From contig CALXSJ010000026.1 of NCBI GenBank assembly GCA_944391115.1, positions 1 through 41,466 on the forward strand: a stretch of DNA of 41,466 bases, written 5' to 3'. The notes beneath the pieces are model-generated. The model was given only the letters and a program-made list of their open reading frames with translations. It was not told the origin of the DNA and did not search any database. Made by a program: the position numbers and the translations under genes. This document shows, one piece after another, positions 2,990 to 37,730 of this stretch; position 1 is the stretch's first letter, and each line of letters starts with the position of its first letter. This DNA is from an uncultured Victivallales bacterium (GTDB taxonomy: Bacteria > Verrucomicrobiota > Lentisphaeria > Victivallales > UBA1829).

Positions 2990-3024
2990 GTTCTCCTTGT
3001 GGTAACAATTAATGTATGCTCGCA

Positions 3025-3097
3025 GCAGGACTGAGAGTCCTGCACGAAGCTATTCTGGCGATGCAAAGCATCGCGATGTCAACCTGATTTTTTGAAT
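3025..3097 (-). repeat. Partial copy (B) of the 150-bp structured repeat
   Basis: This holds the first half of the repeat unit described at 3096-3245, in tandem with it and in the same orientation. It keeps the AAAAAATCAGG start, the hairpin GCGATGCTTTGCATCGC and the hairpin GCAGGACTCTCAGTCCTGC, then stops about 35 bases before the esterase start codon. The shared half is nearly identical to copy A, so the tandem duplication is recent. Confidence 0.85.
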
Positions 3098-3245
3098 GAA
3101 TTACCGCGATGCAAGCATATGCGGTATCGGGAGTTTCGCCTCCGGCGACCAGCTTGCGCAGCTGGACCGCGGCAGGACTGAAAGTCCTGCACGAAGCTAT
3201 TCTGGCGATGCAAAGCATCGCGATATCAACCCATTTTTTCAATAA
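3096..3245 (-). repeat. Full copy (A) of a 150-bp structured repeat
   Basis: Read on the minus strand the unit runs from TTATTGAAAAAAT to GCGGTAATTCAT. It is a chain of hairpins: GCGATGC-TTT-GCATCGC, GCAGGACT-TTC-AGTCCTGC, CCAGCT-GCGCA-AGCTGG, GGAG-GCGAAA-CTCC and a terminal TACCGC/GCGGTA stem. A diverged copy lies at 37229-37380 on the other strand. It is not a gene: a short open frame across the tandem copies only repeats the same peptide twice. It lies between a possible promoter at 3251-3278 and the esterase start, so it would be transcribed as leader RNA. Confidence 0.9.
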
Positions 3246-3250
3246 TAAGG

Positions 3251-30709: not shown

Positions 30710-31156
30710 ATGAGCAGAAAAAAAAGACTCAACAGAAACCGGACCGCCTGCCCGTGCGCATGCACCGCGGAAGAGATGTCAGGATGCTGCACGCTCCAGC
30801 ATCTGAAAGTGGCGCTGATCGGCGGCCTGGACCGTCTGGAAAATCAGTATCGCTCGGTATTCGAATCGCTGGGCACGATGAAATTTTATTTTCATACCGG
30901 CTGCTGCAGCGGATCGGGCGCAAACCGTCTGCGCGCCTCCGCGCAGGATGCGGACATTGTGGTATTCATCACACGGGTCAACAGTCATAATGCGCTGAAC
31001 GTCATCAAGGGAATCTGCAGGAAAAGCGGAAAATCTTTCCTTGCATTGCGGGAAACCAATCCGGCGCTCGTCTCGAAAATTGTCACGCAGACATGGCACA
31101 GCAGGAAAATGCGCGGACCGCGGCCTGCACCGGTTGTCAAGGACAGCCTTCCATGA
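30710..31156 (+). CDS. DUF2325 small cysteine-rich protein
   Basis: A 148-aa protein. Residues about 31-130 match DUF2325: HLKVALIGGLDRLENQY, then FHTGCC, ADIVVFITRVNSHNALNVIK and KSFLALRETNP. The family has a Rossmann-like fold and unknown biochemistry, and often accompanies DUF3793 and flavodoxin. The N-terminus adds a cysteine cluster (Cys14, 16, 18, 26, 27) which, with Cys65, 66 and 103, could bind metal (inference). AAAAAGGAG precedes the start. The last eight codons lie in a segment that is duplicated at about 37.2 kb. Confidence 0.82.
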   Translation: MSRKKRLNRNRTACPCACTAEEMSGCCTLQHLKVALIGGLDRLENQYRSVFESLGTMKFYFHTGCCSGSGANRLRASAQDADIVVFITRVNSHNALNVIKGICRKSGKSFLALRETNPALVSKIVTQTWHSRKMRGPRPAPVVKDSLP

Positions 31157-31395
31157 GGGTTATGTTTCCGCTTGCAATCGGGAAACAAGGGGATATAGTA
31201 ATCCAGAAACTTTTATCCCACTCTTTCAGTAACAGGTTGTCCAACCGGACAGGAGGCGCATCATGCACACGTTCCGCGGCGGAATTCGAATCGGGAACTC
31301 ATCCTGGGATGCAATCAATTACACCTGGCCTTTTGCAAATGCCGCTTTCACCGAGGATGCACTCCGGTTTTCAATCGACTTCTTTTTTCTGAAAA
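31133..31395 (+). repeat. Parent copy of a duplicated segment
   Basis: From the last codons of the DUF2325 gene through the first 43 codons of the small PH-like gene, this sequence aligns to 37203-37608. Shared blocks include AGGTTGTCCAA, GGAGGCGCATCATGCA-like start-site DNA and GCGGCGGAATTCGAATCGGG. The other copy carries a 148-base insertion near its left end. Confidence 0.85.
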
Positions 31396-36990: not shown

Positions 36991-37202
36991 AAAACGGATT
37001 GCGTTTCCCCCTCAAGAGCTGAAGAAAAGTGCCGTCATGCATTCCTGACAGACGCACATTGCATCGGCTTATTGCCTTGCTATATTTCCAGAAAAAGCAG
37101 TTCCATCCCCCCTTGTCCGGGGGGATGGGAAATGGAAACAGCTTGAAAAGAAGCATTGAAACCGGACATTCGAAAGAAAAAAAGCCTGTGTAACACCTCA
37201 GT
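36991..37202. other. Intergenic region with a strong GC hairpin
   Basis: CCATCCCCCC (37103-37112) pairs perfectly with GGGGGGATGG (37119-37128) across TTGTCC. No T run follows on the plus strand. It may be the 3' end of the hydrolase transcript, or a structured repeat. No gene seen. Confidence 0.5.
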
Positions 37203-37232
37203 TTGTCAAGGGCGGCATCACATAAGGGTTAT
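37203..37232 (+). repeat. Left part of the decayed duplicate (DUF2325 tail)
   Basis: TTGTCAAGG...AGGGTTAT aligns at roughly 80 percent with 31133-31162, the last codons of the DUF2325 gene plus the following bases, and keeps a stop codon in the same place (TAA for TGA). The alignment breaks at GGGTTAT, where the structured repeat begins, and resumes at 37381. Confidence 0.7.
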
Positions 37233-37380
37233 TGAAAAAATCAGGTCGACAGTGCGATGCTTTGCGTCGCCAAAATAACTGCGTGCACTCAGCGACTCCA
37301 GCTCCGGTCCAGCGGAACAAGCTGGCAGCCGGAAGCGAAATTCCCGATACGAGCGCATGCCCTGCACCGAGGCGCTTCAT
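37229..37380 (+). repeat. Diverged copy (C) of the 150-bp structured repeat
   Basis: Runs from TTATTGAAAAAATCAGG to GGCGCTTCAT and aligns end to end with copy A (3096-3245, opposite strand). Differences preserve pairing: GGAG/CTCC becomes GGAA/TTCC with the same GCGAAA loop, the terminal TACCGC/GCGGTA becomes AGCGC/GCGCT, and GCGATGC/GCGTCGC needs one wobble. The second hairpin (GCAGGACT) is lost. It interrupts the duplicated DUF2325/PH-like segment. Confidence 0.85.
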
Positions 37381-37730
37381 TTTCCCGCCTGCAAACGAAA
37401 AACAGGTGGATACAGCAATCCGGAAGCTTTTATCCTTGTCTCTCAATCACAGGTTGTCCAATCCGGACAAGAGGCGCATCATGCATAAGCTTCGCGGCGG
37501 AATTCGAATCGGGCGTTCATTCCGGAAGGCAATCAATTATTCCCGGCCTTTTGCCAGAGCTGTTTTGCCGGGAATGCACTCCGGCATTCAATCTGCGTCT
37601 TTCTTCTGATGGAAAGAAAGGATTTGTTCCAAAAAATGAAGTATTTTCCTTTCAAAAAAATGCCGTATCCAATTTTGAGGTTTCATTCAATCATTTGCGT
37701 TTGACCAGCAGGAAGAAACATTTCACAAAA
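37381..37730 (+). pseudogene. Broken duplicate of the small PH-like gene
   Basis: 37381-37608 aligns with 31163-31395, including the ribosome binding region and the ATG (37482; MHKLRGGIRIGRS against MHTFRGGIRIGNS). Near 37567 one base is missing relative to the intact gene. The first frame stops at 37608, while homology continues in another frame (NALRHSICVFLL against DALRFSIDFFFL). Downstream of about 37615 similarity fades. It is not expected to make a functional product. Confidence 0.75.

Follow-up and report, generated by a model that had tools for sequence, protein, structure and literature searches.

A short gene-free repeat of Victivallales, probably mobilized by a transposase of the IS200 type, carries a three-hairpin core found across the order

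Two copies of a repeat of about 150 bp lie far apart in the window (the whole 41,466-nucleotide stretch of an uncultured Victivallales bacterium analyzed here), and raise the question whether their hairpins mark a structured RNA, a folded DNA element, or something else. The original prediction had aligned copy A (3096-3245, minus strand) and copy C (37229-37380, plus strand) end to end; both copies and their alignment are confirmed. The repeat is short, gene-free mobile DNA, which most likely jumps as single-stranded DNA by means of an IS200-type transposase. It is best described as a non-autonomous IS200/IS605-type mobile element with structured cargo, similar to the palindrome-associated transposable elements (PATEs), a reading to which a probability of about 0.86 is assigned. 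The parts of the copies in the window are listed in Table 1.

Table 1. Repeat copies in the window, their hairpins and their flanking target-type motifs
Feature	Position	Strand	Basis
Copy A, probable non-autonomous IS200-type element, about 146 bp, GAAAAAATGGG to AATTCATT	3095..3240	minus	ends set by analogy with empty sites
Target-type hexamer ATTATT, immediately 5' of copy A	3241..3246	minus	motif rule from empty sites
H1 of copy A, left-end (LE) hairpin GCGATGC-TTT-GCATCGC	3205..3221	minus	94% standard pairs
H2 of copy A, GCAGGACT-TTC-AGTCCTGC	3172..3190	minus	genus alignment
H3 of copy A, CCAGCT-GCGCA-AGCTGG, middle hairpin of the order-wide core	3149..3165	minus	genus and order alignments
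H4 of copy A, TCGCC-GGA-GGCGA, last hairpin of the core	3136..3148	minus	genus and order alignments
H5 of copy A, right-end (RE) hairpin TACCGC..GCGGTA	3102..3126	minus	RE comparisons
Terminal TTCATT of copy A, after H5	3095-3100	minus	
Copy B, tandem, beginning directly after TTCATT of copy A, 3'-truncated past H2	3021..3094	minus	
Copy C, older, diverged element, GAAAAAATCAGG to GCGCTTCATT	37234..37381	plus	
Target-type hexamer GTTATT, immediately 5' of copy C	37228..37233	plus	
Element-free paralogous sequence, in-window empty site (GGGTTATGTTTCC) for copy C	31136..31200	plus	

Further copies, for which the original prediction had proposed a search, are numerous. The window's own genome (G000) holds about 55 matches to copy A, with E values down to 1e-73, and the repeat is therefore not a chance similarity; some 16 of these copies are almost identical to each other and reside at unrelated sites. 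The family is abundant in the congeners G001 and G003, is also present in G002, and among named records matches uncultured Victivallales/Lentisphaeria. Measuring 146-150 bp and devoid of genes, the element is too short to accommodate a transposase gene. Copies are mainly intergenic, only 23 of 151 long matches overlapping a crude ORF call, mostly at the ends of the calls, and a coding origin was rejected on these grounds. An origin from phages or plasmids was also rejected, as phage and plasmid collections gave no match to the repeat, and IMG/VR none to the RE pattern. Contigs C16, C24, C25, C35 and C43 of G000 start or stop in or near repeat copies; the assembly was thus probably interrupted by the repeats, and the copy counts given here are lower bounds.

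Lineage-specific insertions were recognized by comparing individual stretches of G001 to the corresponding G000 loci. At locus L013, the filled site reads GGTTCATT, element, TCTTGAG, and its empty counterpart GGTTCATTTCTTGAG; the flanking hexamers are TTCATT on the left and TTTATT on the right, the latter being the element's own end. L029 and L030 are further clean filled/empty pairs. Two tandem elements are found at a single TTTATT in L002. In L019 and L021, a diverged, older copy supplied the target, namely the TTCATT at its 3' end. The use of older copies as targets explains the tandem arrays. The target is exact, since the element, of 140-150 bp, enters directly 3' of one YTYATT; a further TTYATT forms the 3' end of the element itself. 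There is no target duplication: empty sites hold one hexamer, the second one being the right end of the element. Conservation of the flanks stops at the hexamer motif in 26 distinct sites. A filled/empty pair exists also within the window, copy C interrupting a sequence whose paralogue is uninterrupted (Table 1). A sequence of about 250 bp, unrelated to the element, occurs twice in the window (31136-31392 and 37200-37609, about 80% identity), and copy C sits within the second of the two. Lagging-strand transposition would predict a bias in orientation relative to replication; the count was 31 of 50 loci (p 0.12).

At the left end of the element, TTYATT is followed by a short A-rich stretch, GGTTRATACC and hairpin H1; the right end is made up by RATACC.., hairpin H5 and ARTTYATT. 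The presence of RATACC 5' of both end hairpins is what is expected if both cleavage sites are identical and recognized, as we infer, by guide base-pairing. The 3'-end pattern ATGCTTGCATCGNGGTARTTYATT was detected in only 7 of the 388 genomes of a phylum sample, all within the same order, and a reversed control in none. The RE pattern follows the end of an IS200-type tnpA gene or its remnant in G308 and G024, a related RE version is found after tnpA in G058, and the RE lies behind tnpA fragments in G028, G031 and G048. A protein search revealed an intact insertion sequence (IS) in G020, present in two copies, the second visible only in its left part. The left end of this IS reads TTTATT, then CTTTTGGGTTTAATACC-CCGACCC-TCT-GGGTCGG, with TTTAATACC preceding the LE hairpin, and the right end ..GGGGTAGTTCATT. 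In five comparisons, the similarity between the ends of the repeat and those of these IS200-type elements each time surpassed all 2000 shuffles. Between the genus element and the intact IS, the LE match is only moderate; the element of G050, the LE of which is nearly the same as in the G020 IS, bridges the two. Both ends of the repeat are thus related to those of an IS200-type insertion sequence from the same order. As its terminal hairpins match those of an IS encoding a Y1/HUH TnpA, the repeat is interpreted as a PATE-like, non-autonomous IS200/IS605 element.

The linked protein is a Y1_Tnp (PF01797, E 1.5e-37), and its solved relatives include 2xm3/2xma and the ISHp608 TnpA 2a6m. A search for an intact TnpA of the matching type was negative in G000, G001 and G003, where the Y1 genes seen are decayed or truncated and belong to other types, so that the mobilizing enzyme may have been lost, be unassembled, or reside elsewhere; G002 has a tnpA of the matching type, in a decayed state. 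Near a contig end, at L035 (G000:C35:25416-25862), lies a decayed Y1 transposase gene belonging to another IS200 type. The IS200 elements of G002:C2 and G012:C38 were considered as partners and rejected, their ends being unrelated.

The hairpins of IS200/IS605 elements work as folded single-stranded DNA. The TnpA of the related IS would bind in trans both folded hairpins of the repeat on single-stranded DNA, and would cleave 3' of two hexamers, the flanking TTYATT on the left and the element's own TTYATT on the right. The element might then be released as a single-stranded circle, to be rejoined 3' of a TTYATT elsewhere. Since every inserted copy terminates 3' in a fresh TTYATT, later copies can land there and give rise to head-to-tail arrays. 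ISDra2 and IS608, the members of the IS200/IS605 family among which the closest solved relatives of the linked Y1_Tnp are found, similarly insert 3' of a short motif and have subterminal hairpins. Their targets are TTGAT and TTAC, whereas the repeat targets TTYATT; moreover, the repeat is gene-free, and no tnpB was found in 61 relatives.

The closest parallel is provided by PATEs, defined in Haloquadratum (PMC3119063) and described also in Halanaerobium (PMC7290912). As in PATEs, palindromes located near the termini are related to those of an IS200/IS605 element (PMC3119063, PMC7290912), a transposase gene and target duplications are both absent, the target is 4-6 bases long, the distance from end to palindrome is longer at the 5' than at the 3' side, and amplification occurred though the host genome has few intact tnpA genes or none. 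In contrast to PATEs, the repeat is found in Victivallales, has a 3' end which is itself a target, whence the tandem arrays, and carries a conserved, covarying three-hairpin core which is not derived from the IS. The original prediction that no described family has this layout is therefore not correct for the ends, and appears to hold for the core, which has no match in Rfam and no description in the literature searched.

Five hairpins (H1 to H5) were monitored in an alignment of 81 non-redundant copies from the genus. Standard pairs amount to 94% in H1 and 92% in H3, the CCAGC/GCTGG hairpin, in line with the pairing originally noticed in both. The stem GGAG-GCGAAA-CTCC, proposed to close a loop, is in Watson-Crick register in just 43% of the cells, and gives way to the hairpin TCGCC(GGA)GGCGA (H4), for which the figure is 84%. 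The terminal stem is real, but the right ends of copies A and C are of two different types, and blur each other when placed in one alignment. The 5' arm of H2 is lost in 46 of 80 genus copies. Covariation is weak at this level, and barely exceeds the controls: 19 pairs show double changes vs. 14.1 in shuffled alignments, and slid partners reach 23. G-U and A-C mismatches are balanced (104 vs. 112, H2 left out). Within the genus, stem changes are mostly decay.

A different picture emerged at the order level. The block H2-GCGGT-H3-H4-AAATC recurs across the order with exchanged stems, those of H4 being TCGCC/GGCGA, TCGTGC/GCACGA, TCGCGC/GCGCGA and TCGCTC/GAGCGA. At E 0.001, a covariance model of this core finds matches in 50 of the order's 137 genomes, some of which have 30 or more copies, and outside the order a single match in one genome of a 319-genome phylum sample. 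In 74 distinct aligned sequences, 18 of the 20 pairs are changed on both sides, and 92.9% are paired; the double-change count was reached by none of 500 shuffles and is at most 11 in slid versions, and the covariation score is 0.352, vs. 0.105 in shuffled and at most 0.066 in slid alignments, all counts being inflated because the alignment was fitted to the model, though exchanged hairpins are still visible in unaligned sequence. The shape of the core, more than its sequence, is kept across a whole bacterial order. Junctions and linkers (GCGGTCCAGC, CTGGTCG, CGAAATC) are conserved over the order as well, and hence some function-like constraint acts on the core. The idea of selection on structure, as RNA or folded DNA, is thus backed in part by the IS200/IS605-type ends and by the order-wide covariation of the core, but not by the misassigned stem, nor by the genus-level changes.

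RNA helices are normally rich in G-U pairs. In H3 and H4, 76 double changes were counted across the order vs. 4 one-sided ones, and 5 G-U vs. 6 A-C cells, a pattern which typical RNA helices do not show, and which DNA hairpins or block exchange would be expected to produce. With G-T intermediates nearly absent, a DNA hairpin fits no less well than RNA does. This bears on the hypothesis that the repeat is transcribed, its hairpins being selected as RNA, for example in a 3'-UTR or regulatory element, and spread as a repeat. The strong covariation of the core would fit such an RNA, as would the avoidance of promoter-type spaces between divergent genes, in which elements are rarer (7/96 vs. 62/246 spaces, p 1.4e-4, as determined with a crude gene caller); this depletion counts in favor of the mobile element, too. 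Yet the balance of G-U and A-C in the genus and the lack of Rfam matches argue against it, and the precise insertion of whole elements at TTYATT would be left unexplained; we regard it as unlikely. It is somewhat more plausible, though still doubtful, that the compensation seen in the core results from mutation or module exchange (palindrome-templated repair, gene conversion, hairpin swapping) and not from selection on structure, which would be compatible with a mobile element. Hairpins switch as whole blocks with hardly any intermediates (CAGGACT../CAAGGGTC.. in H2; TCGCC, TCGTGC, TCGCGC and TCGCTC in H4), and genus-level covariation is weak; the conservation of linkers and junctions over the order speaks to the contrary.

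Two other known systems were taken into account. REPs are palindromes of 20-50 nt which follow a GTAG (PMC8266576), and REP/BIME elements moved by RAYT (TnpA-REP) resemble the repeat in being high-copy, palindromic, intergenic, and arranged in mosaics and tandem arrays, and in their association to the Y1 enzyme family, members of which are found in the order (PMC8266576, PMC2817692). A repeat of this kind is very improbable here, and was rejected: the GTAG head is absent, the element is a unit of 150 bp, its two ends are distinct and its insertion target is defined, the linked enzyme is an IS200-type TnpA inside an intact IS, and by way of Y1 genes G000 offers just a decayed one of another type. 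The core, located just upstream of the right end, might recall the multi-hairpin block found at this position in IS605 elements, and be the omega/re-RNA of a TnpB-type nuclease carried by a gene-less element. As the TnpB family PF07282 was found in 0 of 61 relatives, while controls were detected, this hypothesis is effectively refuted as regards TnpB.

The non-autonomous IS200/IS605-type element remains the preferred reading, and the core, common to other mosaics of the order with different ends, is its unexplained part. The autonomous IS lacks the core. Nothing was found on such repeats in Lentisphaerota in the literature searched, and the internal core does look undescribed. It forms a cargo between the ends; one guess is that it helps the mobile DNA to fold, to bind proteins or to persist. 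Tentatively, H2-GCGGT-H3-H4-AAATC could be a selfish or domesticated structured module, spread over the order and reaching dozens of copies in the genomes of many members, hosted by IS200-type elements as by other multi-hairpin mosaics, and selected as a folded nucleic acid recognized by some protein or process. The core is a rare case of strong hairpin covariation almost without G-U steps; covariation screens would otherwise call it a new non-coding RNA, and it may serve as a test case to tell covariation driven by DNA hairpins or repair from RNA structure. To our knowledge, PATEs are known mostly from haloarchaea. Here the PATE-like family is bacterial, its target is defined, empty sites occur naturally and a candidate for the autonomous partner is at hand, which makes the mechanism directly testable.

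Mosaic multi-hairpin arrays, in which the core is common, and other hairpins and ends differ, were found in G001, G003 and G000 (L108 3953-4840, L111 4500-5200, L045 900-1400), some being tandem units of 400 bp. The core adjoins GGAGGAGGG..GAACCTTGA..TCAAGGTTTCCCCTGCG at L360, L384, L358 and L362 (G332, G426, G041), and in G332 and G426 cores are often paired in inverted orientation, with a spacing of about 70 or 250 bp. In the single-contig genome G185, two cores (L365 and L386; G185:C1:1584091 and 1663555) adjoin two apparent ribosomal RNA operons.
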